Shown here one piece after another: positions 3,979 to 63,944 of a DNA stretch of 64,000 bases. The position numbers and the translations under genes were made by a program. The stretch is from Rufibacter latericius. Its GTDB lineage: Bacteria; Bacteroidota; Bacteroidia; Cytophagales; Hymenobacteraceae. Each line of letters begins with the position of its first letter. Position 1 is the first letter of the stretch. The DNA is taken from positions 224,258 to 288,257 of the forward strand of contig NZ_RJJD01000015.1 of NCBI RefSeq assembly GCF_003721515.1, given 5' to 3'. The notes beneath the pieces are model-generated. The model saw only the letters and a list, made by a program, of their open reading frames with translations, was not told where the DNA came from and ran no database searches.

Positions 3979-4023
3979 AACCCGTTTGGGGCTAGTTTTC
4001 TGAAAACCGGCCCCAAACGGGTT
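3979..4023. terminator. Bidirectional hairpin terminator between convergent genes; copy of the dispersed palindrome
   Basis: The 14-nt arms AACCCGTTTGGGGC and GCCCCAAACGGGTT are perfectly complementary and enclose a 17-nt loop containing GTTTTCTGAAAAC. It lies exactly between the convergent YraN-type gene and the MORN-like gene. It matches the palindromic family described in the findings, so the element may have been co-opted as the terminator. Confidence 0.75.
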
Positions 4024-4056
4024 CTTACATCTTATATATAGAGTTGCTATTCTATG

Positions 4057-4965
4057 CTATTGATCTTTTTTCTCGAACACCAGGGAGCCATGCCGGTCAT
4101 ACTGTTTCACCAGAACCGGCTCAACAGGTTTGTCGAAAGCTGACTCGGCGTACTGGAACTCAAACTGGCGGCGGCCCCTGAAATCGTAGAAGTTGATCCA
4201 GGTGCCCACCTTTCGGCCTTTGTCGTAGGTTCCTTGCCATTCTAGCTGCCCGTTTTCATAGTACTTGTAGTACTCGCCCTGCACCTGCCCGAACTGATAG
4301 GGGATTACCTCCTTGATTTTGGTTTTGGCGGCATCATAGTACGTGATAACGGCATCGCGCAGGAAGCCCTTTTCATAATGCTGCCGCTGGGTTAGCGTAC
4401 TGTCTGTTTTGAACGTCTCCCAGCGCAGGTGCTTGGTTCCCACGAAGAAGTAGCCCTGCTCTATGAGCACATCGCCCCGCTTTTTGGTGTAAGGACCATG
4501 CAGAATCAGCATCTGGGTTTTAGAGGGGTCCAATGTAGGCGACCTGAAGATCTTGCGCTTCTTCACATCAAAGTAGTGCTTGTCGCGCACGTAAGGGTTG
4601 GGCTCTTTGAACTCGCGCAGGTAGTAGAAGGTCTCCACAATCTCGTTTTTGCCTTTCCCCTGCCGGGCGAACCCTCTCTTCACCCGGTACCCGAAGTAGG
4701 TCTTCTTCTTTTTGGAATCCTTCTTCTTGTCTTTCTTGACTTTGGTGTCGTCCAGACTGTCAGCTTTGGCGGTGGCCAGAGAAGGCTTCGCCAGTGAGTC
4801 GTTCAGGATAGCCGAGTCAATCGGATTGGCCACCAGAGAGACCTTGTCTTTCTTCCAAAAGAAGATCTTCTTTTTCTCCTTGGCAATGATCTGGGCCTGC
4901 GTCTGCTGGTGTACTCCCCAGACAATCCCCAGGCTGCATAGCAGCATCTTTGCCCAAATTCTCAT
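4057..4965 (-). CDS. Exported MORN/YwqK-like repeat protein
   Basis: A 302-aa secreted protein (signal peptide MRIWAKMLLCSLGIVWGVHQQ, cleaved after TQAQ) followed by a very Lys/Asp-rich low-complexity stretch (about residues 60-95, KKDKKKDSKKKK). The C-terminal half has imperfect repeats of the type YYKYYENGQLEWQGTYDKGR..GTWINFYD, as seen in MORN-like and YwqK-annotated proteins. Such repeats mediate protein or surface contacts. The database label antitoxin for this family is not supported by context, since there is no toxin partner here. ATG at 4974 is an alternative start three codons upstream. Confidence 0.75.
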   Translation of the reverse strand: MRIWAKMLLCSLGIVWGVHQQTQAQIIAKEKKKIFFWKKDKVSLVANPIDSAILNDSLAKPSLATAKADSLDDTKVKKDKKKDSKKKKTYFGYRVKRGFARQGKGKNEIVETFYYLREFKEPNPYVRDKHYFDVKKRKIFRSPTLDPSKTQMLILHGPYTKKRGDVLIEQGYFFVGTKHLRWETFKTDSTLTQRQHYEKGFLRDAVITYYDAAKTKIKEVIPYQFGQVQGEYYKYYENGQLEWQGTYDKGRKVGTWINFYDFRGRRQFEFQYAESAFDKPVEPVLVKQYDRHGSLVFEKKDQ

Positions 4966-5118
4966 GTCACCCATAGCAGACTTCTACCTTCTGAATTTTG
5001 ATGATAACGTTCTTAGCCCCTTAAATGGTATACAGCACCCCTTACGTGGAATCTCGTTGCGGGTGGCACCTTTGGAGAAGAACAAATCACGGAAAATAAA
5101 ATTCAAAATTAGCACTTC

Positions 5119-5160
5119 CTGTTTTCAACCTGTTTTTCTGAAACCATGGCAAAAACCCGG
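5119..5160. repeat. Degenerate copy of the dispersed palindrome
   Basis: In the gap upstream of the MORN-like gene the sequence reads CCTGTTTTCAACCTGTTTTT followed by CTGAAACC, GGC and AAAAACCCGG. This keeps the order of blocks of the family (GTTTT, CCTGTTTT, GAAA, GGC, AAAA) but with weak pairing. The rest of the gap (4966-5216) holds one possible minus-strand -7 box, TAATTTTG at 5104-5111, without a good -33 partner. Confidence 0.45.
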
Positions 5161-5216
5161 AAACCAGACCCGTTGCCACAGGCCTGGCGGTAAGCGTACG
5201 CGAAACAATGAAGTCG

Positions 5217-6113: not shown

Positions 6114-6150
6114 TTTAGGTTTTGTTGGTGGAACATCAATTTCGAGACGA

Positions 6151-6181
6151 CAAAATTAGGGCTAATTTTTTTCCTAACAAG
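6151..6181 (-). promoter_or_regulatory. Bacteroidota-type promoter for the RlpA gene
   Basis: On the minus strand there is an exact -7 box TAATTTTG (6151-6158, pattern TAnnTTTG) with CTTG 19 bp upstream (6178-6181) as the -33 element. The predicted start of transcription near 6144 leaves a leader of about 30 nt before the ATG at 6113. Confidence 0.55.
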
Positions 6182-9176: not shown

Positions 9177-9187
9177 GAAGCCCATAG

Positions 9188-9220
9188 AGGCCTCACAGGT
9201 TTTGAAAACCTGTGAGGCCT
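9188..9220. terminator. Perfect 16-bp hairpin with T-run
   Basis: AGGCCTCACAGGTTTT and its exact complement AAAACCTGTGAGGCCT are separated by a single G and followed by TTTATTTTTT. This is a classic rho-independent terminator for the plus-strand gene ending at 9105. The arm sequence CCTCACAGGTTTT is not seen elsewhere in this window, so it is a different family from the GTTTTC palindrome. Confidence 0.8.
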
Positions 9221-9426
9221 TTTATTTTTTGGGAGTTGAGCAAGCGATGTATCAGTTGTTCACTCTGCCAGAAGCAGGATTTCCAGATGAATCAGTTTCA
9301 GGATTCAGAAGCAGCGGCAATGGCACAGACACTCGCAAGTCCGCCGGACGCTACGGGGTCTTTTGAACGGACGCTTTCGGGCTGCTTCCCAAAAAACAGG
9401 CTAAAAACAGGCAAGCAGATTTCGTC
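9221..9426. other. Intergenic DNA with a second palindrome copy and a GC-rich island
   Basis: No gene is supported between the terminator and the end of the histidine kinase gene. At 9322-9360 there is a GC-rich island containing AGTCCGCCGGACG, unlike its surroundings. At 9372-9411 lies a copy of the dispersed palindrome (CGCTTTCGGGCTGCTTCC, then AAAAAACAGGCTAAAAACAG), positioned 16 bp past the kinase stop codon, where it could end minus-strand transcripts. Confidence 0.5.
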
Positions 9427-15447: not shown

Positions 15448-15514
15448 AGTTATAATGAGTTAATATTTTAATGTGCTGATGTGTTATTTCTGTAAGCAAT
15501 GGTCTGTCTTTTCT

Positions 15515-15551
15515 GTTTAGCGCCTGTTTTCCGGAAAACAGACTAGAAGCG
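15515..15551. repeat. Dispersed palindrome copy with perfect core
   Basis: The core CTGTTTTCCGGAAAACAG (15524-15541) is a perfect 18-bp palindrome. The outer arms GTTTAGCGC and ACTAGAAGC are imperfect. It lies between the TolC-type and ATPase genes of the exporter block. Confidence 0.7.
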
Positions 15552-18437: not shown

Positions 18438-18474
18438 GTTTCTTACTGGCCCGGAAAGGCCTTTGAAAAATATC

Positions 18475-18510
18475 TTTTCGGCCTTGTTTTGGAAAAATGG
18501 CCCCAAAAGA
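18475..18510. repeat. Dispersed palindrome copy in the divergent region
   Basis: TTTTCGGCCTTGTTTTGG, then AAAAATGGCCCCAAAAG; the arms CTTTT(C)GG..CC and GG..CC(C)AAAAG pair. It lies between the exporter enhancer region and the TrmH-family gene. Confidence 0.6.
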
Positions 18511-19187: not shown

Positions 19188-20735
19188 TTGTTCCAGTTTC
19201 TGAACCCGACGTGGTTGTGGGCCGCCGCCAGTGTAGCAGTGCCCATTGCCATTCATTTATGGAATAAAAAGCCCGCCAGAACCGTACAGGTGGGCAGCAT
19301 CAGGTGGCTGAAGCCTTCTGAGAGCAAAAAGCTCAGCAGCCTGTACCTTTCAGATTTCTGGCTGTTGTTGCTCAGGTGCGTGCTTTTGGTGCTGTTGGCC
19401 TTGGTTTTGGCAGGGCCGCGCTGGAAACACCAGGTACCCACCGTCGCTGAGAAACACGCCTACCTGCATCCTGAGCTTTTCCAGGCCCATTACCTGCCGC
19501 AGATCTCCGCCACCGTAGATTCCCTGGCCCTCAAAGGCTGGCAGATTCACCGTTTACAACCCGGTTTCCCAAAACTGGCCCTGAACGAGGAAACTACCCT
19601 GAAAACCTTTCAGACCGATAGCCTTCCTCCGGATACCACAAACGCCTGGGCTATGCTGCGGGTGCTCAACCGAAGCCTTCCCCAAAACGCTCAAGCCTGG
19701 ATCTTCACCACCGATCTGCTCCGTCACCACCGAGGCGAATACCCCGCAATGCGCGCCGGCATCACCTGGATTCCGGTAAGTGCCCCCCAAACCAATATCT
19801 GGCTGCAGGAAGCCTATGCCATTCCCTCGGGGCAACTGCTTCTCCGTTTCATGAAAAGCGATGCTCAGCACGTAACCCTTGAAGAACGAAAGATTCCCAA
19901 ACCCGTGCCCGGACAAACTATTTCGCTGCCCGGTTTACCTGCCGTGAAGTTCACATCTCATGCCACCTCAGATTCGCTGGCGTTGCTGGGCGGGGCCCGG
20001 AACACCATTGCGGTGAAAAGTCAGCCGCTGCAAGTACTGGTGCGCCACGCCCCCTCCCGGCAATCCGATTTCCGGTACCTTAGGGCAGCCCTTCAATCGG
20101 CACTTGGCTACCGGGGCGGGGCGTATGACCTAACGGTTTCTTCCGGAAATCAACCTTTGCCCTCGGCCGCGCCTGATTGGGTTTTCTGGCTCACCGATGA
20201 ACCCATAGCTCCCTTTTTGGCCCGTTTCCCCGAAAAGAAGCTGAAAACGCTGCAAGACGCCCCTGGCTCAGCCCGCGTTCAGAAAACAGAAAGCTGGCTA
20301 CAAATCCCAGAGCTATCGGTACCGGTGCCGCTGCATCAAAGAACTCCCGCGCCTAAAAACCTATCTGCCGACATCCTCTGGAAAGACGGCTTCGGGAACC
20401 CGCTGCTCACCAAAGAGCAAAAGGGCCAACACACGCACTTCCGGTTCTACAGCCGCTTTCACCCTACTTGGAATGACTTGCCCAATACTGGACACTTTCC
20501 CGAATTGCTCCTTCGTCTGCTCTTTCCCCAGGAAACTTCCTGGCGCACCCATTTTGATACCCGTACCCTGCAGCAAGACCTGGAACGTCCCTGCACGTTT
20601 TCCGGCACTTTTGCCGAAAACAAGCTTAAAACCGAAAAGCTGGAGGATCTCAAACCGTGGCTAGTGGCTTTCCTGGCTTTGCTGCTGGCGCTGGAACGGT
20701 GGCTGGCGGGGAGAAAGGCAAGGATTAGTGCCTGA
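19188..20735 (+). CDS. BatA-domain membrane protein
   Basis: 515 aa, TTG start. The N-terminus FQFLNPTWLWAAASVAVPIAIHLWN followed by ARTVQVGSIRWLKPSESKK and a second helix is the BatA (aerotolerance N-terminal) domain. The long middle region is periplasmic and a helix closes the C-terminus (WLVAFLALLLALERWLAG). In other Bacteroidota, such genes accompany MoxR ATPases and DUF58 proteins; neither is present here. It heads a three-gene cluster with the DUF4175 and 595-aa genes. Two copies of the dispersed palindrome lie in frame inside it (20214-20250 and 20596-20634). Confidence 0.82.
   Translation: MFQFLNPTWLWAAASVAVPIAIHLWNKKPARTVQVGSIRWLKPSESKKLSSLYLSDFWLLLLRCVLLVLLALVLAGPRWKHQVPTVAEKHAYLHPELFQAHYLPQISATVDSLALKGWQIHRLQPGFPKLALNEETTLKTFQTDSLPPDTTNAWAMLRVLNRSLPQNAQAWIFTTDLLRHHRGEYPAMRAGITWIPVSAPQTNIWLQEAYAIPSGQLLLRFMKSDAQHVTLEERKIPKPVPGQTISLPGLPAVKFTSHATSDSLALLGGARNTIAVKSQPLQVLVRHAPSRQSDFRYLRAALQSALGYRGGAYDLTVSSGNQPLPSAAPDWVFWLTDEPIAPFLARFPEKKLKTLQDAPGSARVQKTESWLQIPELSVPVPLHQRTPAPKNLSADILWKDGFGNPLLTKEQKGQHTHFRFYSRFHPTWNDLPNTGHFPELLLRLLFPQETSWRTHFDTRTLQQDLERPCTFSGTFAENKLKTEKLEDLKPWLVAFLALLLALERWLAGRKARISA
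20214..20250. repeat. In-frame palindrome-like copy inside the BatA-domain gene
   Basis: TTTTTGGCCCGTTTCCCC, then GAAAAGAAGCTGAAAACGC. It keeps the block order of the intergenic family and encodes FLARFPEKKLKT. Confidence 0.45.
20596..20634. repeat. In-frame palindrome copy near the 3' end of the BatA-domain gene
   Basis: CGTTTTCCGGCACTTTTGCC, then GAAAACAAGCTTAAAACCG. It encodes TFSGTFAENKLKT. The match to the intergenic family covers both arms, although arm-to-arm pairing is imperfect. Confidence 0.5.
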
Positions 20736-20767
20736 TATCTTTTAAATTTAAGTATACTCAATATCCT

Positions 20768-22987
20768 TTGGCCCAGCTCACCTCCCATATCACCTCATCC
20801 TCACCAGTCCTAAGGCAGGTGCGGGCGCAATACCTTCAGAAGAAGGCGTGGTTGTTTGCGCTGCAAGCTTTGGGGGTTCTTTTGCCGGTGGCGGTGTGGG
20901 CGTATCGTGACTGGGGTGGAGTGGGTGGGGGAACTGCCGCGGCTATTCTGGCCTTCCTGATCCTTGGGTTACAAGCCATGCGGTGGCGGGAATTTCAGAA
21001 GAGAACAGACCTGCCCAAAGTGGCCCGCCACCTGAACCGCAAGTACCCACCCTTAGAAGAAAGCACAGAGTTGCTCCTGCAACCCGAGGAAGAACTTCCG
21101 CTCTTGGCGAAATTACAGCGCCATAGGATAGCCACTATTTTAGACCAGATTTCACCAAAAGAGGCCTCAAACGTACCCTTCCGGAACGGATGGATACTGC
21201 TGGGCCTGGGTTTGCTTATAGCTGTTGGGCTTTGTTTTTTACCCGATTTCACCAAAACAAGCGGAAAAACCATTCATCCATCCTCAGGTACTTCCACTGA
21301 CGTGAATGAACCCGTAGCCAAACCCAAAGCCATTCTGCCAGCCATTGAGCAGATGAACATCCGCGTTTCGGCACCGGCTTACACGCGCAAGGCTCCTTAC
21401 GCCGTCACTACTCCCTCCTTCAAAGTGGAAATCGGGTCGAAGGTGACCTGGACCGTGCAGACAAACCAAGCCCTATCTTTTTTGCAGCTGGTGCTGAGCA
21501 ATCAGAAGCCTATTCCACTCCGCGCCGTTGCTAGCCAGCGAAACACATATACGGCCGCTTTTACCGTTACCCAATCCACGCTGTACCATTTGCGCCTGAA
21601 CGGTCAGGCCTCAGATTTCTATTCCATCGAAGTCATCCCAGATGAGGCGCCTTCGGTGACTATCCAAAAACCGAAGCAGTACACCGAGATCCTTTTCGGG
21701 GAACCGCAGCGCGTGACGGTACAGGCTACCTTACGGGATGATTACGGGCTACAGTCGGCGGAGCTAATCGCCACGGTGGCAAAAGGTGAGGGCGAGGCGG
21801 TGAAGTTCCGGGAGCAGCGCATTCCTTTGAAGCTTTCGTTCAACGGCCAGCCGCGGCAACTGCAACTGAACCAGACGTTGAACCTGAAAGCCCTGGGCAT
21901 GACCTACGGCGATGAGCTGTACTTTTACCTGCAAGCCCGGGACAATCACCGCGGCTACACCCGCACTGAGGCGTTTCTGGTGGAGATTGAAGATACCACG
22001 GTGGTAGAAACCATGGATGACCTTTCCTTAGGCGTGAACCCTAACCCCGAGTACTTCCGGAGCCAGCGCCAGATCATCATCGATACCGAGAAACTGATTC
22101 AGGAGCAGAGAGGCCTAACTCAAACCGTGTTCCAGGAGCGATCCAACAACATTGGGGTAGACCAGAAACTGCTGCGCCTGCGCTACGGCAAGTTCCTGGG
22201 CGAGGAGTTTGAATCGAACATTGGGGCGGCCGCTTTGCCTGAAGGATTAGGTGAGGGCCACACCGCCGATGACGGCCATGACCACGGCACCCAAAAAGAG
22301 GGTAGCGAACACGAGAACAAAATGGGCGAACTGCTGGATCCGTACCTGCACAAACACGACCAGGAGGAAGCCGCCACGTTTTTTGAGCCTGCCATCAAAT
22401 CCCAGTTGAAAGGTGCTTTGGCCCAGATGTGGGAAGCAGAACTGAGGCTTCGGACCGCCCGTCCCAAAGAAGCGCTGCCTTTTGAGTACAAAGCCCTGCG
22501 CATGCTCAAGGAAGTACAGCAAAAATCACGGGTGTACGTGAAGAAAAGTGGGTTTGAGCCGCCTCCGCTCAAAGAACCCGAAAAACGCCTCACCGGAGAT
22601 TTGAGCAAAGTACAGGCCTACCAAGCACAGCGTAAAGAAAAACCCGCGGAAACTTTGCTGGCTTCTAGGAAGGCGTTGCAGCGTGTGGCCCAACTCAGAC
22701 AAGGCACGAAGCCGGCTTCTACTGATGCTGCTTTGCTGGAGCGGGCCGGTCAGGAACTGGGGCAGGCCGCTGTGCGCGAGCCCGGCCAATACCTCAGGGC
22801 GCTGCAGGATGCGCGGCAACTTACCCAGGACATCAGGGCCGGCAAACCACTTTGCCAGGACTGCCTTAGCCGCGTGGAAGCCGCACTGCATCGTTTTCTG
22901 CCTGTTTCCGCAAAATCGGCGCAAAAACCGATTTCCTCGGGCGTGCCTAGGAAACTTGCCCAGGATTACTTTAACCGGCTGAACTAA
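20768..22987 (+). CDS. DUF4175-family membrane protein
   Basis: 739 aa, TTG start. Two or three N-terminal helices (about 28-70 and 140-158) are followed by a large extracytoplasmic region with an Ig-like DUF4175 core (IRVSAPAYTRKAPY, PDEAPSVTIQKPKQYTEI, LRDDYGLQSAELIATV, LYFYLQARDNHRGYTRTEAF) and a helical C-terminal half. A His/Asp/Glu-rich loop at residues about 497-531 (GHTADDGHDHG onward) could bind divalent metal. The family is found next to BatA genes in Bacteroidota and its function is unknown. Two palindrome-like copies lie in frame (21234-21271 and 22892-22930). Confidence 0.78.
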   Translation: MAQLTSHITSSSPVLRQVRAQYLQKKAWLFALQALGVLLPVAVWAYRDWGGVGGGTAAAILAFLILGLQAMRWREFQKRTDLPKVARHLNRKYPPLEESTELLLQPEEELPLLAKLQRHRIATILDQISPKEASNVPFRNGWILLGLGLLIAVGLCFLPDFTKTSGKTIHPSSGTSTDVNEPVAKPKAILPAIEQMNIRVSAPAYTRKAPYAVTTPSFKVEIGSKVTWTVQTNQALSFLQLVLSNQKPIPLRAVASQRNTYTAAFTVTQSTLYHLRLNGQASDFYSIEVIPDEAPSVTIQKPKQYTEILFGEPQRVTVQATLRDDYGLQSAELIATVAKGEGEAVKFREQRIPLKLSFNGQPRQLQLNQTLNLKALGMTYGDELYFYLQARDNHRGYTRTEAFLVEIEDTTVVETMDDLSLGVNPNPEYFRSQRQIIIDTEKLIQEQRGLTQTVFQERSNNIGVDQKLLRLRYGKFLGEEFESNIGAAALPEGLGEGHTADDGHDHGTQKEGSEHENKMGELLDPYLHKHDQEEAATFFEPAIKSQLKGALAQMWEAELRLRTARPKEALPFEYKALRMLKEVQQKSRVYVKKSGFEPPPLKEPEKRLTGDLSKVQAYQAQRKEKPAETLLASRKALQRVAQLRQGTKPASTDAALLERAGQELGQAAVREPGQYLRALQDARQLTQDIRAGKPLCQDCLSRVEAALHRFLPVSAKSAQKPISSGVPRKLAQDYFNRLN
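21234..21271. repeat. In-frame palindrome-like copy inside the DUF4175 gene
   Basis: GTTTTTTACCCGATTTCACC, then AAAACAAGCGGAAAAACC, encoding FLPDFTKTSGKT. The arms are degenerate; block order and frame match the other in-gene copies. Confidence 0.35.
22892..22930. repeat. In-frame palindrome copy near the 3' end of the DUF4175 gene
   Basis: CGTTTTCTGCCTGTTTCCG, then CAAAATCGGCGCAAAAACCG, encoding RFLPVSAKSAQKP. It lies in the last 30 codons, a region likely to tolerate insertions. Confidence 0.5.
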
Positions 22988-22989
22988 CC

Positions 22990-36835: not shown

Positions 36836-37281
36836 GCACATTTCTCCAACTCTACAGGCCAACAGAGTGGAGTATTAATCCAACTGTAACCTCTTGATAT
36901 TTAATATTTAAAATAGTATACATATCTTGTTATATGTTCCTTTCTATTCAATTATAAATGCATCTTGGATTAAAAAATTTCAGGCCGGATAAACCAATAA
37001 TCACCCTATTAGGGCACTTGGCTAAATGGCTATAATCCAAAATATTACGATTGGACAAATTTATTAAATAAAATGCAATATCCCAGATTTAATATATATT
37101 CGTGTTTTACAATATAGCACACGCCTGTTTTTTCCAGGTAATTGGAAACAAATAGCTTAGCGGCAAAAAGAGGAAGTTTGACTTTAGGTAAGCAGCATAA
37201 AGTAGGCAACGGCACGCACACCCCAATACCACAGCTTCATTTCAACTGCGTCCTATAGCGGAAAGCACAAGGACCAGGAAA

Positions 37282-37320
37282 GCATTTTCGGTCTGTTTTT
37301 CCCAAAAAGCACTTAAAACA
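37282..37320. repeat. Degenerate palindrome copy
   Basis: GCATTTTCGGTCTGTTTTTC, then CCAAAAAGCACTTAAAACA, in the gap between the two adhesin modules. Confidence 0.5.
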
Positions 37321-44700: not shown

Positions 44701-45369
44701 AGACGCTACGGAGGCGCAATTAGTGAAAGGGAGCGAAAAATTCTGAGTGGCCAGCACATCTTCCAGAGAGGGATCTGCCCGTTGGTTTATGACAAGTTCT
44801 TTGGTGACTTCGCTTGTACAGCCGCCTGCATTGGTGACTGTCAGCTTTATCTGGTACCTGACGGTGCCCGTTCCGTTGGAGACAAAGGTATGGTTGACTT
44901 CCTGTAAATTACCGGTATTCCCACTACCAGAATCAGGGTCCCCAAAGTCCCACTTATATTTGAAACCAGGGCCTGAAGTAGTAGCAGTGAACCTTACATT
45001 AGAGCCCGAACAGACATTATCAGTAAAGGTAAAATCGGCAGTGGGGTTGGTGCTTGTGACTACCTTAAAAGGAGTAGAGATTTTCTCCTCACAGGAGGTT
45101 CCTTTTACCAGTACAGTATAATCACCAACTGCGGTTACGGTCAGCTTATTGCCGGTTTGCCCAGCCAGATCAACCCCATCTTTCTGCCACTGGAAAGTAG
45201 CCCCTGCACTCCCTGACGTAGCCACCAAAACTATCTGCCCGGCTCCTGGGCACAAGGCACTGGGCCCTTCGGCCGAGACAGAGACCTCACAATCCTGCGC
45301 TAAAAGCTGCCCATGGCAGATCAATAGGACAAAGAATACTAAATACAGGCGACGGTAAAACTGTGCCAT
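38728..45369 (-). CDS. Giant T9SS type B surface protein with PKD domains and 11 WFRR repeats
   Basis: 2,213 aa from MAQFYRRLYLVFFVLL (signal peptide ending LLAQ). The first part (about 25-700) has Ig-like and PKD domains (KYKWDFGDPDSGSGN, YTIDWGDGQIQNFPASF, FQFDDGSPGYTF). The middle (about 790-1990) has 11 copies of an approximately 92-aa unit with an opening ICSG, a TGSQPTGG..YTYxWE core, and the hallmark TTWFRRVV..GxC, interrupted by Ig-like modules (FYVQVTDAKGC). The C-terminus has two more Ig modules and a type B sorting domain (FIPNVLTLNKDGINDEWEI, VEVFNRWGTRLF, YYYIIQLD). Likely a SprB-like surface adhesin secreted with its adjacent PorP/SprF partner. Confidence 0.9.
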   Translation of the reverse strand: MAQFYRRLYLVFFVLLICHGQLLAQDCEVSVSAEGPSALCPGAGQIVLVATSGSAGATFQWQKDGVDLAGQTGNKLTVTAVGDYTVLVKGTSCEEKISTPFKVVTSTNPTADFTFTDNVCSGSNVRFTATTSGPGFKYKWDFGDPDSGSGNTGNLQEVNHTFVSNGTGTVRYQIKLTVTNAGGCTSEVTKELVINQRADPSLEDVLATQNFSLPFTNCASVASNYLLKVRNTSTTKATNRAYTIDWGDGQIQNFPASFEEAEHTYTTQGEFNLKLVIAGPNCTSTKNIKVFNGSNPSLTVGSPGNTVGCAPVTYTFPITGIANNSPSTIYTFQFDDGSPGYTFTQDNVPTSLTHTFLKSSCNNGGTDAFKLNATAKNPCGITNVIVSSIYIAAKPKASFELEPKTPTVCINTAYTLKNTSDPGANMLGVGRCNNNAGYQWEIAPATGWSLTSGTLTSQSPVINFSAKGDYNIKLKVTNNCSSHDTTFVFSVLEPPTADFTTTLNPNTGCANLEVATNNQSVGEQLTYLWSVSPDAGYTITSGSLTSKDPVFNFTTAGIYTLTLETINPCGTSKDSTQVKVNAPPTVTLPGAQELCAPGVIAFTDANTSHRPEYMANFGTISAYKWTVTGAGGATFVSGSTDASQYPSIDFPVAGTYTVTVTATNECGVSAAASQEITIRELPLPPTVAGLTICDGEPAVLTATGGAAGTTYRWYEAATGGSPVFTGDTFTPSPALTTTTTFYVDAVSGFNCVSATRTAVTVVVLKGVSNNNIAAQGAVTICEGVAPNPIIGSNPEGGDGAPYQYKWQISTDGVTFTDAPGTNTEKDYSPALITRNTWFRRTIASQKCAIDVSNVVAFTFSPTPAAPLLTLNDVAICEGQQASLSVNPQLGFTYKWYTASTGGTLVTTGESYQTPVLVRDTVFYVEALNENSCVSTSRSEVRVRVAATIADNTVMGGQDICTGQTPGILTGSQPMGGNNSFTYTWESSVTSGTSGFVPIPNSNTKDYSPAALTTTTWFRRVASSAGCVTTSGAVEVTVKPEITDNIVSSGQTVCAGKVPAAFTGSQPLGGNNTYTYQWEVSTISGTAGFAAINGATAKDFTPTEAVTQNTWFRRVVNSGTCQKSESEAVLVEVQQPIASNTISADQAICSGESIGVLMGQEPTGGSGAYTYVWEQSTTSATAGFSPIPDANAKDLASMSLTVTTWFRRVVTAGACDPSISNAVQVTVSPALENNLITNSQTQIICIGSTPAMWQGAQPTGGDNVFTFQWEQSTDGVAYTDILGATDINYAPAAPTQDTWYRRKVISRTCTSTSPAVKVEVQQPIADNSIAGEQTICAGSFAQALTGSQPTGGSGNYGYQWEASTDGNTYTPIANAAQGEYTPVNLAQTTWFRRIVTGGACAANVSNGIKVTVTAPVTNNIISAPQSICSNTAPLALTGSQPASDPGASFTYQWESSTTSATAPDFTAITGAEGMDYAPGVLTQTTWFRRVVTTGGCTSASEAIKITVEPLPASPTVANQVICENNSATLAITGASAGTYQWFDVEIGGTALGQGASFTTPVLTTSATYYVQVTDAKGCISPRAMVQVTVNQNIGNNIVSSNQALCVGSSPSLLTGTSPTGGNGVYTYLWEKSTLGPDTGFSPAPGTNSDSTYLPTNITTVTWFRRRVTAGPCLPSVSEAVRISISPVITNNRISFPQSTCSGTPPAPITGTQPQGGDGTYTYLWESSTTGTTGGFAPAAGNYQERDYQPESLTQTTWFRRTVLSGGCTITSAVVQVTVVPLIANNEITADQTICSGDAVQPLTGSTPTGGNGTYTYLWESSTDGVVFTPAAGENRKLTYTPGVVRTTTWYRRTVTSFPCFESKSTPVKITVITPIANNIIRTGQEVCANTAPGLLEGSLPTGGGPNITYRWEVSTDGATGTYTPAPGANTELNYQPSPLTQTSWFRRVVVSVSCQNQPSNVVQIKVNQLPAAPALVTSNPRVCPGDRINVTVTNPGFGVEWYDQPQGGTLLYTDVTFPTPALTETTTFYVQSLSREGCPSSSRTAVTVEVVPAKPDAGPDVSIIIGRSANLQASGGVKYEWSPATGLSSVNTAATIATPKETTTYTVTVTTAEGCIAKDEVTVTVLPEIFIPNVLTLNKDGINDEWEIQNIEKYPNCKVEVFNRWGTRLFTSEGYQTRWDGTYQGKPLPVAAYYYIIQLDKDEKPIAGSITIIN

Positions 45370-45699
45370 AGAATGAAGCAAAGGTGAAAAAGAAATAGAC
45401 TTTATGAGAAAAGGGAAACTCTCAACTTTTATAAAGATAGGAACGCAATACTTAATTTTCCAATTAAAATTATATTTAAAATTAAAATGTAAATAGTTAC
45501 TTCTGAATATTGGCTTTTTTGAGCTGTTTTCCTGTAAGAAAGAATAAGCGGCTCAACATCCTCTTTTCTATGTTTTATTCAATCCTTTATTTTAATCATA
45601 TGAAAAAGTCAAAAAAAATATAATTATTCAACATTAAATTAAAAGACTTATATATTAGACGAGAAGATGGATACTAGAAGAGATAGAAAAAGGGCGAAG

Positions 45700-45740
45700 C
45701 GTTTTAGGGCAGTTTTCTTGAAACGAGCGCAAAAACAAGG
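45700..45740. repeat. Dispersed palindrome copy
   Basis: CGTTTTAGGGCAGTTTTCTT, then GAAACGAGCGCAAAAACAAG. Left arm, centre and right arm all follow the family pattern, with several mismatched pairs. Confidence 0.5.
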
Positions 45741-48113: not shown

Positions 48114-49298
48114 CTAAGCGGCAGACACCCCAATCGCCTTCTTCAAAGCATTCAGAATAGAGTCGTTACTTCGTTTCAGGATGGTTTCATTCACATAGAA
48201 CTTGATCACGCCTTGGCTGTCGGGCATTCTCAGCTGGATGCGATCTTTCTCCTTTAAATGGGTGGTGAGTTTGTCGTAGTTGACGGGTGCCGTTATCTGG
48301 AGGTTGAAGATGTTACTTCCGTTAGGGATTTTAGCGACTTTCATGTGGCCCGATTGGTTCATCAGGGTCATCAGTTGGTCTCCTTTGGCGCGGGCTTTCT
48401 GCAGTTGGCTCTCGATGGAAGATAGTTTATCAAGGGCCATGGCTGCATAGGGCCAGTTCTGGTAGATGTTGCCGCCATAAATCTTGATCAGGTGCGGCAT
48501 TTGGTCAATCACTGCGGCATCACCGGCGAGAATGGCACCGCCTTTGCTGCCCAGGTATTTGTATAGGGACACATAGACGGTGTCAAAGTAAGATGAATAT
48601 TCCCTGATGGATACCCCGGAATACGCCGAGGCCAAGTGCAACCGAGCCCCATCCAGGTGCAGCTTGATGTGGTGCTCCCGGCAATAGGCCGCTATTTTCT
48701 TTATCTCTTCCAGGGAGAAAACCTGCCCATCGGCTCTTCTGACTGGGTTCTCGATGGACACGGCCCCAATGCCGCTCTGGAAAACCTCTCCTTTCTGGTG
48801 GTACGCAATGGCCTCTTTCAACTCCTCCAAGCTGAACTCGGCTTTGCCGGGCACCAGCGGCATCAACCGTTTGCTGTGTACGGTCTGGGCAGCATCGGCT
48901 TCGTCGCGGTACAGGTGGCTTAGTTCCTGCACAAAGACTTTGCTTTTACCCTCGCTCAGCACCCGTAGCGCAAGGTTGTTGGCCATGGTCCCCGAAGGCA
49001 TGAAAATGGCTTTCTGTTTTCCGGTCAGTTTGGCAAAATCGGCCTCTAAACGGGACACGGCTCCTCCTTTGGCGTAACTGTCCTGGGTGTCTGGGTACTT
49101 TTCTGCGATAACCTGAAGTTCCCGGGCATATTCCAAGGGAGAGGTTAAGGCGCCATCGGTCACAAAGTTGATGTTTTCCTCTTTCGCCGCGTAATCGGTC
49201 AGGCCAGAGGCGGACAAGCCCGTAGGCAGCAGCAGGGGGAGCGTCGCCAACCCTGAGTTCTTTATGAATTCCCTTCTTCCGGGTATCTTCCAGGCCAT
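48114..49298 (-). CDS. Threonine-aldolase-like PLP enzyme with export signal
   Basis: 394 aa. The first 32 residues (RREFIKNSGLATLPLLLPTGLSA) look like a Tat-type signal. The rest is a beta-eliminating lyase/low-specificity threonine aldolase: GGAVSRLEADFAKLTGKQKAIFMPSGTMANNLAL, IENPVRRADGQVFS, LHLDGARLHLASAYSG, and SLYKYLGSKGGAILAG, in which one Lys forms the PLP aldimine. Cytoplasmic homologues cleave threonine to glycine and acetaldehyde. An exported version would have to receive PLP before Tat export, which suits a folded-protein route. It follows about 130 bp upstream of the GGT gene on the same strand, so joint transcription is possible. Confidence 0.85.
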   Translation of the reverse strand: MAWKIPGRREFIKNSGLATLPLLLPTGLSASGLTDYAAKEENINFVTDGALTSPLEYARELQVIAEKYPDTQDSYAKGGAVSRLEADFAKLTGKQKAIFMPSGTMANNLALRVLSEGKSKVFVQELSHLYRDEADAAQTVHSKRLMPLVPGKAEFSLEELKEAIAYHQKGEVFQSGIGAVSIENPVRRADGQVFSLEEIKKIAAYCREHHIKLHLDGARLHLASAYSGVSIREYSSYFDTVYVSLYKYLGSKGGAILAGDAAVIDQMPHLIKIYGGNIYQNWPYAAMALDKLSSIESQLQKARAKGDQLMTLMNQSGHMKVAKIPNGSNIFNLQITAPVNYDKLTTHLKEKDRIQLRMPDSQGVIKFYVNETILKRSNDSILNALKKAIGVSAA

Positions 49299-51382: not shown

Positions 51383-51554
51383 AAGACTAAAGCACGCTGT
51401 CTTGCAACAGGCTCCTTTGCCCGTTTCTTGTAGAAATTTAATCGTACAGCACCGCTGGATTCTCTTCCTTAATTTGCGCCCGGCTCTTCCGTTTTACCTG
51501 CATTTTCTAGAAAATACCCTTAAATTGGGAAACCGTCTATTTGTCTTTTCCTTC

Positions 51555-53765
51555 ATGAAATACCTTTTCAGAAACACCGCCTTTTTCTACCTGTTTATCC
51601 TCGTTCTTTTCTCCTGCTCCGGTAGCGAGAAGATTACCTCCTCCAAAGAGGTAGGCAACTGGAAAGAACAGGCCGCCCGCGTCACCATTATTCGGGATGA
51701 TTTCGGCGTGCCGCACGTCTATGGCAAAACCGATGCCGATGCCGTCTTTGGGCTACTGTACGCGCAGTGCGAAGATGATTTCAACCGGGTAGAGCGCAAT
51801 TACCTGTGGGCAACCGGTCGGCTGGCCGAGGTGGAGGGCAAGGAAATGCTCTACAGCGACCTCCGGGCGAAACTTTACATGACCCAGGAAGAAGCCATCC
51901 AGAACTACGAGAAAAGCCCCGAGTGGCTGAAAAAACTCTGCCAAGCTTTCGCCGATGGCATCAACTATTACCTGCACACCCACCCCGAGGTAAAACCAAA
52001 GCTACTCACCCGCTTTGAACCCTGGATGCCCATGTACTTCACCGAAGGCTCCATTGGCGGCGACATAGAAAGCATTCCGCTCAACAAAATTCAGGCGTTC
52101 TACGAGGACAACAAAGCGCAGGGATTGACCGGCTACCATCACCAACCATCGGCACAGCCCAACATTCTGGCGGAACCTAAAGGCTCCAACGGCTTCACCA
52201 TCTCGGGCAAACACACTGCGTCTGGCAATGCCATGCTGCTGATTAATCCGCACACGTCTTTCTTCTTCAGGGGCGAGGTGCATGCGGTGAGCGAAGAAGG
52301 CTTGAATGCGTACGGCGCAGTGACCTGGGGCCAGTTCTTCATTTACCAGGGCTTCAACGAGAAAACCGGCTGGATGCACACCTCAGCGTACGTAGACGTG
52401 ATTGACGAATTTGAGGAGACCATCAGCAAGAAGAACGGCAAACTGGTCTACCAATATGGCAACGAGCAGCGGCCGGTCACCACTTCTGAAGTCACACTTT
52501 CCTACAAAGAAGAAAACGAAGTCAAGCAAAAGACCTTCACCACCTACAGAACCCACCACGGCCCTATCACGCACCAGAACGGCGACAAATGGGTAGCCAC
52601 CGCCCTCATGTGGAAACCGGTAGAGGCGCTCACGCAATCCTACACCCGCACCAAGAAGAGCAACTTGAAAGAGTTCAACGAAATGATGCAAATGCGGACC
52701 AACTCCTCTAACGGCACCGTCTACGCCGATGCAGAAGGCAACATCGCATACTACCACGGCAACTTTTTCCCTAAACGCGACACCTCCTTTGACTACTCCA
52801 AACCCGTAGACGGCAGCAACCCCAAAACCGATTGGCAAGGCCTGCACACCCTGGAAGAAACCATCCGGGTCATCAACCCGCCCAACGGCTGGATTCAGAA
52901 CTGCAACTCTACGCCGTTTACCAGCGCAGGCGAATACAGCCCCAAAAAAGAAGATTATCCTGTGTACATGGCGCCGTCGCCCGAGAACTTCCGGGGCATC
53001 CATGCGGTGCGCCTGCTCAAGAACGCGAACAGCCTGACCTTGGACAAGCTCATCGGTTTGGCTTATGACCCGTACCTGCCCGGCTTTGAAGTGCTCATTC
53101 CGGGCTTGGTGAAGGCCTACGACAACCAGAAACCAAATGACCCCAAACTGAAGGAAGCTATTGACGTGCTGCGCCGCTGGGATTTTGCGGTGTCCAAAGA
53201 ATCAGTGGCCATGTCGTTGGCGCATTTTTACGCGACTATTTCCACGAGGAACGGCAGCGCGCCCAAAAACCTGAACCTCATTGAGCGCTTCGAGTATTAC
53301 GCGAACCAATCACCGGAGAAAGAGCGTCTGGACCTTTTCCGCCAGACCATCGCGCAGCTGGAAAAAGACTTCGGCACGTGGAACACGCCTTGGGGAGAAA
53401 TCAACCGCTTCCAGCGCCTCACCGGCGATATTCAGCAGCCGTTCAATGATGCCAAACCTAGTCTTCCTATCGGCATGGCCTCGGGGAACTGGGGTGCGCT
53501 GGCCTCGTTTGGCGCGAACTCCTACAACACCAAGCGCCTGTACGGCACCTCGGGCAACAGCTTTGTGGCCGTGGTAGAATTCGGGCCGAAAGTGAAGGCG
53601 AAAACCATGCTGGCTGGCGGACAAAGCGGCGACCCTAATTCCCCACATTTCAGTGACCAGGCCCAGCGTTACGCCGATGTGCAATTCAAAGACGCCGCCT
53701 ACTACCGCGAAGACGTGGAGAAACGCGCCAAAGCCACCTACCATCCGGGAGAGAAACGACCATAA
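51555..53765 (+). CDS. Penicillin-acylase-family lipoprotein (Ntn hydrolase)
   Basis: 736 aa from MKYLFRNTAFFYLFILVLFSC, a lipoprotein signal peptide with lipobox LFSC. The longer frame beginning with a TTG at 51402 has no signal-like start. The N-terminal domain (RVTIIRDDFGVPHVYGKTDADAVFGLLYAQCEDD) and the internal processing site PKGSNGFTISG, where the Ser becomes the nucleophile of the beta subunit, mark it as a penicillin acylase family member. NPHTSFFFRG..EVHAVSEEGLNAYG and the C-terminal ANSYNTKRLYGTSGNSFVAVVE are typical. Such enzymes cleave amides such as acyl-homoserine lactones, penicillins or acylated amino acids. The natural substrate here is unknown. The M20 gene follows after 44 bp. 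Confidence 0.88.
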   Translation: MKYLFRNTAFFYLFILVLFSCSGSEKITSSKEVGNWKEQAARVTIIRDDFGVPHVYGKTDADAVFGLLYAQCEDDFNRVERNYLWATGRLAEVEGKEMLYSDLRAKLYMTQEEAIQNYEKSPEWLKKLCQAFADGINYYLHTHPEVKPKLLTRFEPWMPMYFTEGSIGGDIESIPLNKIQAFYEDNKAQGLTGYHHQPSAQPNILAEPKGSNGFTISGKHTASGNAMLLINPHTSFFFRGEVHAVSEEGLNAYGAVTWGQFFIYQGFNEKTGWMHTSAYVDVIDEFEETISKKNGKLVYQYGNEQRPVTTSEVTLSYKEENEVKQKTFTTYRTHHGPITHQNGDKWVATALMWKPVEALTQSYTRTKKSNLKEFNEMMQMRTNSSNGTVYADAEGNIAYYHGNFFPKRDTSFDYSKPVDGSNPKTDWQGLHTLEETIRVINPPNGWIQNCNSTPFTSAGEYSPKKEDYPVYMAPSPENFRGIHAVRLLKNANSLTLDKLIGLAYDPYLPGFEVLIPGLVKAYDNQKPNDPKLKEAIDVLRRWDFAVSKESVAMSLAHFYATISTRNGSAPKNLNLIERFEYYANQSPEKERLDLFRQTIAQLEKDFGTWNTPWGEINRFQRLTGDIQQPFNDAKPSLPIGMASGNWGALASFGANSYNTKRLYGTSGNSFVAVVEFGPKVKAKTMLAGGQSGDPNSPHFSDQAQRYADVQFKDAAYYREDVEKRAKATYHPGEKRP

Positions 53766-58568: not shown

Positions 58569-58570
58569 CA

Positions 58571-61916: not shown

Positions 61917-62079
61917 AATACCAGCAATAAACTTACCCTTAAAATCAACCACAAACCACTTGGAAAACACCAACAATCTAACACAGGTCAGCTCAAAGCA
62001 ACCGCTAATCCTGCTTCCTCTTACATATTCTTTAACGATGATAGAATCAGGGAATTAGGATCTTTTTTTTTGCTTTATC

Positions 62080-62102
62080 ACTTTGAATAGCAAAGCACTT
62101 TT
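62080..62102. promoter_or_regulatory. Operator-like palindrome, site 3 (serine hydrolase)
   Basis: ACTTTG-AATAG-CAAAGC followed by ACTTTT, the third copy of the pattern with one changed arm base. It lies 52 bp before the ATG at 62154. The similar spacing of sites 2 and 3 to their genes supports a shared regulatory role. Confidence 0.6.
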
Positions 62103-62153
62103 TCCTTAAATATTAGAGTAATAAAACCCTTGAAATATTAAAATATCAAGCAT

Positions 62154-63875
62154 ATGAAACAAGAACTCAGCCCCTCCAAAACACCTCTTAATGGGTTAAA
62201 TCAACTCAGAATTACGCCACTCACCAAGACCTTTTTCTTCCTGGCAGTAGTATGGGTTGTTATCTTTTTCGGTAACACATCAACTCAAGCACAGGACAAA
62301 ACCACCGAGGTAGACAAGATTCTAAACTGGGCCACGAAGGAAACCCCTGGCTGTACGTGCGCTGTCTCGCAGAACGGAAAGGTGGTCGTGAACCGGGCGT
62401 ATGGCTCTGCCGACCTGGAGCGTGAAGTCCCGCTAAACCCGAAGTCAGTTTTTGATATCGGGTCGGTGCGGAAGCAGTTTATTGCTGCGGCTACCCTCCT
62501 GCTTGTGGAAGAGAAACGCCTTTCTCTTTCCGAGGACATTCACAAGTACCTCCCTGAACTACCTGCTTACGGTCACAAGATTACGTTAGACCACTTACTC
62601 AACCACACCAGCGGCATACGGGATTGGACCGGCTTGATGCCATTGGCAAACGGCAACCCTGATGCCTTGACCCTTATTTTGCGTCAACGCGGCCTCAATT
62701 TTAAACCCGGTGAGGAATTCTCGTATTCCAACAGCGGCTATGTACTGTTGGTTGAGATTGTAACCCGCACCACCGGAATGCCCTTTGCTGAGTTTGCGCG
62801 CCAGCGCCTGTTTGAGCCCCTCGGCATGAAGTCCACCGCCTACGTTTCCGACATGACAGCCACGATCAAGAACCGGGCTCTTGGTTATGAGAAGACGAAG
62901 GACGGCTGGAAACTGGACATGTATTTAGGCAATGACCGGGGCGCCGGAGCCATTCTCAGCACGGCAAGTGACCTTGTACTCTGGAACGATGCCCTTACGA
63001 GCAATCGCCTGGGTACGTTTGTGAGTTCTATGCTTCAGGAACCGGCTAAGCTGAACAACGGCAGAAAACTGGGCTATGCCCGTGGTCTGTTTCTAGAGAC
63101 TTACCGGGGTGTCAAAGAAGTGTGGCATTCTGGTGGTGCGGCCGGCTATCATACCTGGCTGGGCCGCTTTCCGGAGCAGGGCATCTCCATTGCTGTTCTG
63201 TGCAATTCAGACGCAATGTCCGCCACGGCGGTCGCAGAACGCATAGCTGACCAGTTTGTGACGTACTCAGATTCTCAAAAGGCCGTAGCTAAAACGCCAC
63301 CCGCCCTCACTGGCGCAGCCCTGGAAGAAGCGAAGAGCAACACCGGTCTGTTTGTAAACGAAAAGACCGGTGAGATGCTACGCTTGGCCGTGGACCGTGA
63401 CAGGTTCCGCATCGCCGGAGGTCCCGGTCTTGCGCAGGTGACCCCAGGTACTTTCCGCCGTTTTGGGGCCTCTGTTCAGTACATGTCACAAGACGAATTT
63501 GAACTGCATTTCCAGTCACCAGACCAGTTTGAACTGATTACGATGGAAGGTCAAAAATCCCGCTATCGGCGGGTCCAGCCTTATACCCCCAACGCCGCCG
63601 ACTTGCAGGCTTTTACCGGTCGTTACACCAGCAACGAGCTTGGGGCGTTTTTCGACCTGTTTTCCGAAAAAGACAACTTAAAGGGCCGCGCCAATGATGC
63701 ACCGGGCGTAGGGTTTGACCTCAAGCCGGTAACGAAAGACACCTTCCAGTTAGGCGGAGTAACCGTGCGTTTTGTGCGGGATAAAGCCGGAAGGGTAACA
63801 GCCCTGGACTACAGCAATCCCCTAATCCGCAACATCAGATTCACACGGCAGAATGACCTTACCAGCCGCCGCTAA
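62154..63875 (+). CDS. Exported serine hydrolase, class C beta-lactamase/PBP-like
   Basis: 573 aa. A long N-terminal tail leads to a signal/anchor helix (about 24-43, TFFFLAVVWVVIFFGNTSTQ). The beta-lactamase-related domain (about 50-380) has FDIGSVRKQF with the SxxK nucleophile motif, FSYSNSGY with YxN, and WHSGGAAGYHTWLGRFP with HxG in place of KTG. A C-terminal lipocalin-like beta domain (about 470-570) follows. The family includes esterases, D-aminopeptidases and PBP4*-type enzymes; true beta-lactamase activity is unlikely to be the main role. An operator-like palindrome lies upstream, and the last third carries an in-frame palindrome copy (63645-63683). Confidence 0.88.
   Translation: MKQELSPSKTPLNGLNQLRITPLTKTFFFLAVVWVVIFFGNTSTQAQDKTTEVDKILNWATKETPGCTCAVSQNGKVVVNRAYGSADLEREVPLNPKSVFDIGSVRKQFIAAATLLLVEEKRLSLSEDIHKYLPELPAYGHKITLDHLLNHTSGIRDWTGLMPLANGNPDALTLILRQRGLNFKPGEEFSYSNSGYVLLVEIVTRTTGMPFAEFARQRLFEPLGMKSTAYVSDMTATIKNRALGYEKTKDGWKLDMYLGNDRGAGAILSTASDLVLWNDALTSNRLGTFVSSMLQEPAKLNNGRKLGYARGLFLETYRGVKEVWHSGGAAGYHTWLGRFPEQGISIAVLCNSDAMSATAVAERIADQFVTYSDSQKAVAKTPPALTGAALEEAKSNTGLFVNEKTGEMLRLAVDRDRFRIAGGPGLAQVTPGTFRRFGASVQYMSQDEFELHFQSPDQFELITMEGQKSRYRRVQPYTPNAADLQAFTGRYTSNELGAFFDLFSEKDNLKGRANDAPGVGFDLKPVTKDTFQLGGVTVRFVRDKAGRVTALDYSNPLIRNIRFTRQNDLTSRR
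63645..63683. repeat. In-frame palindrome-like copy inside the serine hydrolase gene
   Basis: GCGTTTTTCGACCTGTTTTC, then CGAAAAAGACAACTTAAAG, encoding AFFDLFSEKDNLK. The left arm and centre match the intergenic family closely. Confidence 0.45.
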
Positions 63876-63909
63876 CCAACGGAAAATTGATGAGACTAGG
63901 GCAGTTCTG

Positions 63910-63944
63910 ATTTAGGTCTGTTTTCTGAAAAACAGACCCAAAAG
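63910..63944. repeat. Near-perfect palindrome copy after the serine hydrolase gene
   Basis: TTTAGGTCTGTTTT, three bases CTG, and AAAAACAGACCCAAA form an almost perfect palindrome 34 bp after the stop codon, well placed to end or protect the transcript. Confidence 0.75.

Follow-up and report, generated by a model that had tools for sequence, protein, structure and literature searches.

Dyads of 38 bp at conserved places and with species-specific spelling in Rufibacter genomes, possibly the sites of a genus-specific DNA-binding protein

Dispersed palindromes are usually classed as mobile REPs or terminators, and the question raised by a 64,000-nucleotide stretch of Rufibacter latericius DNA (the window) is whether either class accommodates the palindrome that recurs across it. 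A sequence-only reading had listed 19 copies and offered three explanations, namely a REP-like mobile element, a terminator or attenuator, and a protein-binding site. The repeat exists and is more numerous than had been described. The dyad CGTTTTNGGCCTGTTTTC-(0..5)-GAAAACAGGCCNAAAACG matches at least 24 of its 34 fixed letters at 23 places of the window and at none in eight dinucleotide shuffles. When a profile was built from 223 sites elsewhere in this genome, leaving out the window, it gave 34 window sites above a cut-off of 14 bits, against four positions in 20 pooled shuffles; training with the window included gave 35, the added one being 46813. In total, 16 of the 19 earlier coordinates were recovered within 12 bases by the leave-window-out profile (12154, 45512 and 48016 were not). 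The 35 sites are as follows.

2491..2528, dyad site in predicted gene; weak, 19.8 bits
3982..4019, dyad site, convergent intergenic; 29.6 bits; within longer hairpin (3970-4030, -31.6 kcal/mol)
5120..5157, dyad site, tandem intergenic; 34.1 bits
8423..8460, dyad site in predicted gene; weak, 15.6 bits
9139..9176, dyad site, convergent intergenic; 25.4 bits; fold -16.8 kcal/mol
9372..9409, dyad site, convergent intergenic; 39.3 bits
12257..12294, dyad site, tandem intergenic; 37.3 bits; within longer hairpin, -35.5 kcal/mol
15514..15551, dyad site, tandem intergenic; 37.3 bits; fold no better than shuffles
18473..18510, dyad site, divergent intergenic; 32.3 bits; fold no better than shuffles
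19551..19588, dyad site in BatA-like gene 19188-20735; 25.8 bits; not retained in more distant relatives
20212..20249, dyad site in BatA-like gene; 36.1 bits; same-codon motif in 16/16 genus genomes
20596..20633, dyad site in BatA-like gene; 34.1 bits; same-codon motif in 16/16 genus genomes, weakest in L017 (21/34 letters)
21136..21173, dyad site in DUF4175 gene; 29.3 bits
21233..21270, dyad site in DUF4175 gene; 27.8 bits
22892..22929, dyad site in DUF4175 gene; 32.5 bits
24048..24085, dyad site in gene next to DUF4175 gene, without Pfam family; 30.6 bits
27582..27619, dyad site, convergent intergenic; 22.2 bits
27737..27774, dyad site, convergent intergenic; 25.3 bits
28559..28596, dyad site in predicted gene; 26.9 bits
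29858..29895, dyad site, tandem intergenic; 34.9 bits; within longer hairpin, -28.7 kcal/mol
37283..37320, dyad site, tandem intergenic; 31.6 bits
37476..37513, dyad site, tandem intergenic; 39.1 bits; fold -20.8 kcal/mol
45700..45737, dyad site, tandem intergenic; 38.3 bits
46813..46850, doubtful dyad site in predicted gene; 15.1 bits; missed by leave-window-out profile
49015..49052, dyad site in predicted gene; 29.3 bits
51345..51382, dyad site, divergent intergenic; 27.1 bits
51490..51527, dyad site, divergent intergenic per gene caller, yet within longer ORF 51402-53765; 24.6 bits
54309..54346, dyad site in predicted gene; weak, 16.8 bits
54406..54443, dyad site in predicted gene; 21.3 bits
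55212..55249, dyad site, tandem intergenic; 38.6 bits
60014..60051, dyad site, tandem intergenic; 33.3 bits
61239..61276, dyad site in predicted gene; 26.9 bits
61594..61631, dyad site, tandem intergenic per gene caller; 23.2 bits
63647..63684, dyad site in predicted gene; 24.2 bits
63908..63945, dyad site, gene end 51 bp before; 36.2 bits

Placement between genes near their ends, as first described, applies to many copies but not to the 16 of 35 inside predicted genes, seven of which fall in the stretch of BatA, DUF4175 and the next gene (19551-24085). No Rfam RNA family matched the window at gathering score. The unit is the 38-bp dyad, as lone half-sites are about at shuffle level apart from a few in genome G008: above 16 bits and outside full sites, G012, G008, G014, G003 and G005 contain 0, 4, 0, 2 and 3, and their shuffles 1.3, 1.0, 2.0, 0.7 and 1.7, respectively. 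When five tight genomes were pooled, 13 peaks at 5-20 bits were found against 385 above 20 bits.

The strict pattern is present in all 16 Rufibacter genomes examined (43-1445 copies each) and occurs 0-2 times in each of 188 other genomes of the family, and one complete relative has 1012 matches against 0 for the reversed control, so the genome-wide excess that the earlier reading had predicted is borne out. Density is about 295-565 sites per Mb in nine profiled genomes, mostly in intergenic spacers. Counted by position in three genomes, it is 0.04-0.06 per kb in coding sequence versus 0.7-2.6 in the intergenic classes. Convergent regions are the densest in G012 and G008 (2.5 and 2.6 per kb, with tandem 1.5 and divergent 1.0), and in G000 tandem regions (1.6) are slightly above convergent (1.5), with divergent at 0.7. 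Sampling of G012 in 30 stretches of 20 kb gave at least two sites in 29, on both replichores, and neither confinement to nor exclusion from the origin or terminus was found in this one genome.

Orthologous intergenic regions agreed in 431 of 465 comparisons (241 with a site in both, 190 in neither, 34 in one only), covering 10 species pairs with p of 7e-5 or less in each, the same species recurring in several pairs. These common positions count against a mobile palindrome, REP-like or otherwise, that a RAYT transposase would have spread, which is the least credible of the explanations considered. REP/BIME elements are likewise short palindromes present in hundreds or more per genome, mainly extragenic and often near gene 3' ends, so that size, copy number and location suit the idea. 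In addition, Y1_Tnp matches were found in 15 of the 16 genomes, and in the window's genome (L002) two dyad sites lie within 1 kb past a Y1_Tnp gene, at about the usual density. The dyad differs in its conserved positions, its dialect change in place and its want of general arm covariation, and sampling along G012 gave 211 copies, of which 210 are distinct. RAYT-driven spread was rejected for G012, a genome whose sites are tight, where a Y1_Tnp search at E 0.001 gave no match despite the 1012 pattern matches. The GTAG or CGTC tag that REP elements have at one end (PMC3733652) was absent by eye from nine genome consensus sequences.

Among 28 regions where the caller reported a site in one species only, none showed a clean site-sized insertion between matching flanks. 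Over half of the site faces a gap in 10 of them, with length differences of 118-492 nt in eight and 5 nt in one, and the last (173 nt in G014, 119 nt in G003) may be a gain or loss of a whole hairpin. Two BatA sites compared with 13 outgroup proteins revealed no insertion either. With the one possible G014/G003 indel excepted, these alignments indicate that sites probably originate via substitution, not insertion. Rickettsia palindromic elements, described as in-frame insertions, also occur within protein genes, and the dyad resembles them in having some copies in protein genes, but the two coding dyads tested are without insertion.

While the places are fixed, the spelling changes. Pairwise comparison of profiles, trained with the tested sites included, assigned sites to their own species in 40/40 cases for G012/G014, 38/38 for G012/G003 and 38/38 for G014/G003 (116/116 together), and in 16/16 for G014/G005. 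The preference was less sharp where dialects are similar or loose (42/56 for G012/G008, 62/88 for G000/G015, 69/94 for G004/G009, and 18/20, 40/42 and 46/50 for the other pairs). Leave-one-out testing in G012, G014 and G003 still chose the own profile for 229 of 238 sites, including 20/24 coding and 27/29 divergent ones. Shared places with species-specific spelling argue for a DNA-reading protein rather than a jumping repeat.

Concerted change at many places is also the signature expected of in-place rewriting, in which a template or other copies would overwrite sites in a gene-conversion-like manner, yielding dialects without per-site selection. This is very unlikely, considering that copies within a genome are distinct, that orthologous sites can have private deviations in common (e.g., G012 position 6241 and its G008 partner), and that informative positions are better conserved than flanks. 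Comparison of 25 G012-G008 site pairs aligned without gaps showed differences at positions above 1.2 bits in 8.2%, at middle ones in 16.9%, at the two uninformative positions in 32% and in the flanks in 21-26%. Synonymous resampling of the two BatA sites gave mean z values of 3.4 and 3.1 over the 15 other genus genomes (lowest 1.99), compared with averages of 0.15 and -0.18 in 13 outgroup genes; synonymous codon choice tracks the motif at these two sites, which is constraint at the DNA level.

Arm covariation, which had been taken as a sign of selection for a hairpin, is not general, the total z over all contexts being -2.7 to +2.6 in seven genomes. In the window's genome the claim holds downstream of genes (convergent plus tandem, z 4.6) and not at divergent (0.9) or coding sites (-2.5, negative partly because sites were picked by score). 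Convergent plus tandem values are 4.6 in G000, 3.8 in G009, 2.4 in G008, 2.3 in G004, 2.2 in G005, 1.9 in G003, 0.5 in G014 and 0.4 in G012. The arms of tight genomes vary independently, and for 210 distinct G012 sites the total z is -1.4, and just two pairs exceed chance, pair 6 (+5.2) and pair 2 (+2.8). Pooled z is 3.6 for convergent and 5.9 for tandem sites, and neither divergent nor coding sites have positive pooled covariation. Flanks lengthen the stem by at least five pairs at 32 of the 174 convergent sites and 38 of the 438 tandem ones (about three each after permutation), against 2/106 divergent and 2/144 coding ones, where extension by at least three pairs is slightly in excess (10 against 4.2 and 10 against 4.1, respectively). 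As covariation and stem extension are found mainly downstream of genes, a hairpin role applies to a subset. The earlier preference for selection over recent copying looks right, with covariation as its sign only in those positions.

A conserved-sequence RNA hairpin at 3' ends, acting as terminator or stabiliser, is improbable as the general role and holds at most for that subset. The dense convergent regions, the extended and covarying stems, and the median position 61 nt past the stop codon of the site in single-site tandem regions all suit it, as do the unmasked U-tract terminators of tandem regions (52/236 with a site versus 19/224 without). Once the site is masked, however, the frequencies are nearly equal (28/205 with and 13/136 without in tandem regions, 19/57 and 4/15 in convergent ones). 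An intrinsic terminator is a hairpin followed by a U-tract, and at least five T within the next 8 nt follow only 39 of 438 tandem sites. Divergent and coding sites follow the dialect despite their lack of positive pooled covariation, and a species-specific sequence is unneeded for a hairpin.

The number of sites, their dyad unit, dialects, shared positions, the DNA-level constraint on two coding sites and the split of hairpin features by context are direct observations; the reader protein, the oligomeric form in which it would bind, selection acting on most sites and a boundary function are inferred. Binding of a putative genus-specific protein, the best supported of the three readings first offered, is given close to an even chance as the explanation, with selection maintaining the sites and a general chromosomal role as the likeliest. 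Such a protein would bind each copy as double-stranded DNA, in dimeric or tetrameric form. Selection acting directly on the DNA sequence would hold the sites in place while they arise and change by substitution, and the protein's preference would have drifted between species, leading to joint re-spelling of a species' sites. Its likeliest job would be to mark or insulate transcription-unit boundaries, and the minority built into longer RNA hairpins downstream of genes probably also end or protect transcripts. Sites occur also in 35 of 64 long divergent regions and are unevenly spaced, so that the boundary role is put forward as a suggestion. BIMEs bind gyrase and are comparable to the proposed role, except that the dyad would not be mobile.

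No candidate reader protein was found. Coordinated re-spelling of more than 1000 selected sites would be hard for selection alone. Each site carries 25-53 bits, far over the approximately 11 bits that suffice to find that many sites, and such an excess is unusual for ordinary binding sites and speaks against the protein reading, as do the covarying copies downstream of genes in loose genomes. Self-complementary steps are avoided at the central dinucleotide, a bias not expected of a simple symmetric dimer.

The main rival to the protein-binding reading is a self-recognition word for DNA uptake, by analogy with the DUS of Neisseria and the USS of Pasteurellaceae. A surface receptor would prefer site-bearing DNA, and biased uptake with recombination would maintain the word and drift it into dialects. 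DUS/USS are reported to have species dialects (PMC3630211), to arise through point mutation and show a graded excess of near-matches (PMC1939737), and to be copy-poor in acquired DNA, with inverted pairs doubling as terminators (PMC2397512). High copy number, dialects, substitution origin, scarcity in acquired DNA and some hairpin copies are shared with the dyad. A 20-kb stretch with resolvase and metal-resistance genes has no site. Spacers between lineage-specific genes contain 18 sites over 17.1 kb, compared with 270 over 115.2 kb for spacers between shared genes and 282 over 119.8 kb for mixed regions. The information excess per site would suit a drive, and short high-copy words are present in sister genera.

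DUS and USS are, however, single short non-palindromic words, whereas the unit here is a dyad with a strong spacer preference, strongly intergenic, of low turnover between species and from Bacteroidota. Half-formed sites are few in tight genomes, where the dyad is near all-or-none, in contrast to the graded near-matches reported for DUS/USS. ComEC is encoded in 16/16 genus genomes and is uninformative because 10/14 control genomes have it too. Uptake is considered possible but unlikely. HIP1 of cyanobacteria (GCGATCGC) is another palindrome over-represented genome-wide with an unsettled function, but it is 8 bp long and linked to methyltransferases (PMC4390886), in contrast to the 38-bp, mostly intergenic dyad with its dialects.

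An uptake word would be the first known to us in Bacteroidota, none having been found in a literature search, and an architectural role would mean a new sequence-specific nucleoid system. Somewhat short of an even chance is given to a novel type of chromosome system restricted to the genus. In it, a putative protein would read the dyad at well over 1000 fixed places. Its specificity and all its sites would have been re-spelled several times within the genus, co-evolving rapidly across the genome, and would serve a role, either insulating the chromosome or recognising self, that has no description in Bacteroidota. The species comparison makes joint change of more than 1000 recognition sites testable. 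Since Rufibacter combines tight and loose genomes and several dialects within one genus, the reader protein may be traceable through DNA-contacting residues matched to dialects. Each 18-bp half of the dyad contains two T-tracts about one helical turn apart.

The recurrent dyad claimed by the sequence-only reading is borne out in the window, where 23 places carry at least 24 of the 34 letters of its earlier consensus, as against none in eight shuffles. In one scan the nearest named relatives of the 5.67-Mb R. latericius genome (G000) were Rufibacter and Sabulibacter at 6 of 8 loci, and the distant Lutibacter and Nonlabens at the other two. With 223 sites of G000 outside the window as training set, a profile detected 34 sites in the window compared with 4 positions over 20 shuffles combined, and recovered 16 of the 19 copies originally listed, missing the other three. 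When the window was included the profile gave 35 sites, 16 of which lie within predicted genes. An exact palindrome pattern proved too strict, with no match in the window and one site in the whole genome. The claim had also been made to hang on a genome-wide search against a control, and a single pattern allowing up to 3 mismatches found 1012 sites in the 4.1 Mb of another Rufibacter genome, G012, and none when reversed.

The strict pattern occurs 43-1445 times per genome in all 16 genus members compared, G000 included, and 0-2 times in each of the 188 other genomes of the 204-genome family scan (reversed control 0-1). Since it fits certain species-specific spellings (dialects) better, these counts give no ranking of genomes, and other genera might have dialects that escape it. 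In 100 kb from each of four other genera no similar long dyad was found, and the symmetric-centre count was above shuffles in every genome. Per-genome profiles gave about 295-565 sites/Mb in nine genomes. The 211 sites in 30 sampled stretches of G012 lie on both replichores, and 210 are distinct. A lone near-consensus dyad with 3 mismatches was seen in a genome of a different genus (G016:C1:218562-218597), perhaps transferred from a Rufibacter. Among the titles listed in a literature search, none described the repeat.

The unit spans 38 bp, comprising two 18-bp arms and a 2-bp centre. Lone half-sites above 16 bits numbered 0, 4, 0, 2 and 3 in 200 kb of each of five genomes (shuffles 0.7-2.0), which is near shuffle level overall, genome G008 having a few; above 8 bits, G012, G008 and G003 had 28-29 versus 18-22 shuffled, and G014 and G005 stood at shuffle level. 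Self-complementary central dinucleotides are rarer than expected in nine of nine genomes (186/975 versus about 284), and most sites therefore have a direction, with no clear tie between the orientation of asymmetric centres and gene direction, nor with replichore in G012 (CA/TG 39/31 left, 22/22 right). Each site carries 25-53 bits, compared with the roughly 11 needed to find them. Of the score peaks in five genomes of uniform spelling ("tight" genomes), 385 exceed 20 bits and 13 lie between 5 and 20.

The left arm reads CGTTTTTGGCCTGTTTTC in G012 and G008, CGTTTTcGGgCTCATTTC in G014 and CGTTTAGgGgCTgTTTTT in G003, and spelling is variable in the "loose" genomes G000, G015, G004 and G009. In all 116 tests between G012, G014 and G003, in which sites recur and are included in the profiles, a site in an orthologous spacer matched the profile of its own species better than the other; with each site left out in turn, the own dialect was best for 229 of 238. 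The advantage was smaller between similar or loose genomes (42/56, 62/88 and 69/94), and the idea of a recent dialect switch between G003 and its close relative G010 was dropped after a mixed outcome on only 8 alignable sites. Between G012 and G008, informative positions changed about threefold less than the flanks, as judged from the 25 of 63 G012 sites kept after gapped or unaligned pairs were dropped.

Placement was assessed with a purpose-made simple codon-usage gene caller, whose starts are approximate and which misses some short genes, and context counts exclude sites at stretch edges. In three genomes, sites with at least 24 matching letters occur at 0.04-0.06/kb in genes and at 0.7-2.6/kb in the various intergenic classes. 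Among regions of 60-600 bp in six genomes, those with a site number 85 of 115 where the flanking genes converge, 236 of 460 where they run in tandem and 55 of 126 where they diverge. In single-site tandem regions the median distance to the stop codon is 61 nt, and that to the following start 115 nt. Density is 1.05/kb between lineage-specific genes, 2.34/kb between shared genes and 2.35/kb in mixed regions. Permutation detected no even spacing in five genomes, and coding sites lie farther than random coding positions from the nearest intergenic site in six of seven genomes, though on too few independent loci to be relied on. One 20-kb stretch of G012 (C1:1280001-1300000), with resolvase, MerT-like, P-type (metal) ATPase and DUF305 genes, is free of dyads and is likely acquired DNA.

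The suggestion that the element is a REP-like mobile palindrome is not supported by comparison of these places across species. Of 465 comparisons of orthologous spacers, made in 10 species pairs after regions below 50 bp were dropped, 431 agreed on the presence or absence of a site. As BLAST-based gain and loss is biased against long gaps, the comparison was repeated with a gap-tolerant aligner, dropping regions outside 50-800; the 28 one-sided regions then showed substitutions, diverged sequence or big length differences, except for one possible indel of a whole hairpin. Two "G012-only" regions relative to G008 look like shared sites missed by the threshold or region bounds. The BatA-like gene of the window offers a further comparison:
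19188-20735, BatA-like gene
20212-20249, dyad site within it
20596-20633, second dyad site within it
Both motifs are retained in 16 of 16 genus genomes, and 13 outgroup proteins align across them with no gap of site size, arguing against insertion; a third candidate at 19551 is not kept in the more distant relatives. As a sign of selection on the DNA, the synonymous codons used at both sites in the 15 other genomes, which are related and hence not independent, fit the motif more closely than resampled codons do (z 1.99-4.7 and 2.1-4.8; the BatA-discovery genome was left out), and outgroup genes show no such preference at the two places. The RAYT transposase family has no match in G012, and the sole RAYT-like Y1_Tnp match of G000 (C17:379303-382554) has two dyad sites further downstream. 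Copies of another inverted repeat, whose arms carry CAAGTTTGAGCG and CGGTAACTTG, were seen by eye beside this Y1_Tnp and perhaps form its own REP family.

As a whole, the dyad is best explained as the binding site of a putative DNA-binding protein, a reading held with slightly less than even confidence. A dimeric or tetrameric protein would read the site as double-stranded DNA, and we lean towards a role inside the cell, along the whole chromosome, at the boundaries of transcription units. This is favoured by the near all-or-none character of sites in tight genomes, by how seldom sites are gained or lost, and by their presence in spacers of each type. The main rival, an uptake word, accounts well for the dialects and for the information excess. 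LexA of Bacteroidetes was dropped as a candidate, since neither CTAA-N5-TTAG, its motif in Hymenobacteraceae, nor its roughly nine operons (PMC8565304) fit.

Covariation of the arms had been taken as a sign of a hairpin, a reading that we consider unlikely for the dyad as a whole. Over all contexts no total signal was found in G012, G008, G005, G015 and G003, with a negative one in G014 and a weakly positive one in G000, and on this ground selection for a hairpin in general was rejected; the idea was afterwards confined to copies lying downstream of genes. Pooled over eight genomes, the arms covary at convergent (z 3.6) and tandem (z 5.9) sites, where stems are extended by at least 5 pairs at 70 of 612 sites versus about 6 after permutation, but not at divergent and coding sites, with only 4 of 250 so extended. 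The downstream signal is clearest in loose genomes (G000 z 4.6, G009 z 3.8) and weak in tight ones (z 0.4-2.4); its clarity in the former slightly raises the hairpin alternative and slightly lowers the binding-site explanation. Among regions of 120-600 bp, U-tract terminators differed little in frequency with or without a site once the site itself was masked. When ten window sites were folded against 200 shuffles, those at 3982, 9139, 12257, 29858 and 37476 beat every shuffle, 15514 and 18473 did no better than shuffles, and 63908 and the two BatA sites had no clear advantage. Some copies downstream of genes thus double as hairpins.

Short repeated words of another kind occur in sister genera. 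In genus g5, the 9-mer AAGTATAAA exceeds 1000 copies in 9 of 12 genomes searched (both strands summed), up to 4204 in G161, with a reversed control of 24-115; 67% of copies of its core AAGTATAA lie within genes in a 100-kb sample of G146, and the 9-mer looks like an uptake-sequence-like word. In genus g6, CACCTAGGGC reaches 821-1064 copies in three of eight genomes (G199, G200 and G203; control 0-1) and 1-3 copies in each of the other five, and is regarded as an uptake-sequence-like or HIP1-like word.

Within the window, seven dyads cluster in 4.5 kb across the BatA-like gene, a DUF4175 gene and the gene that follows (19188-24777), and relatives likewise have several in or near the BatA gene. 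A classical U-tract terminator, made up of a hairpin of 17 pairs and a T-run after it, occupies 9186-9222 and is separate from the dyad site that it adjoins. Open frames of 1988 aa (30896-36862) and 2217 aa (38728-45381), each adjoining a PorP/SprF gene, possibly encode large secreted adhesins.
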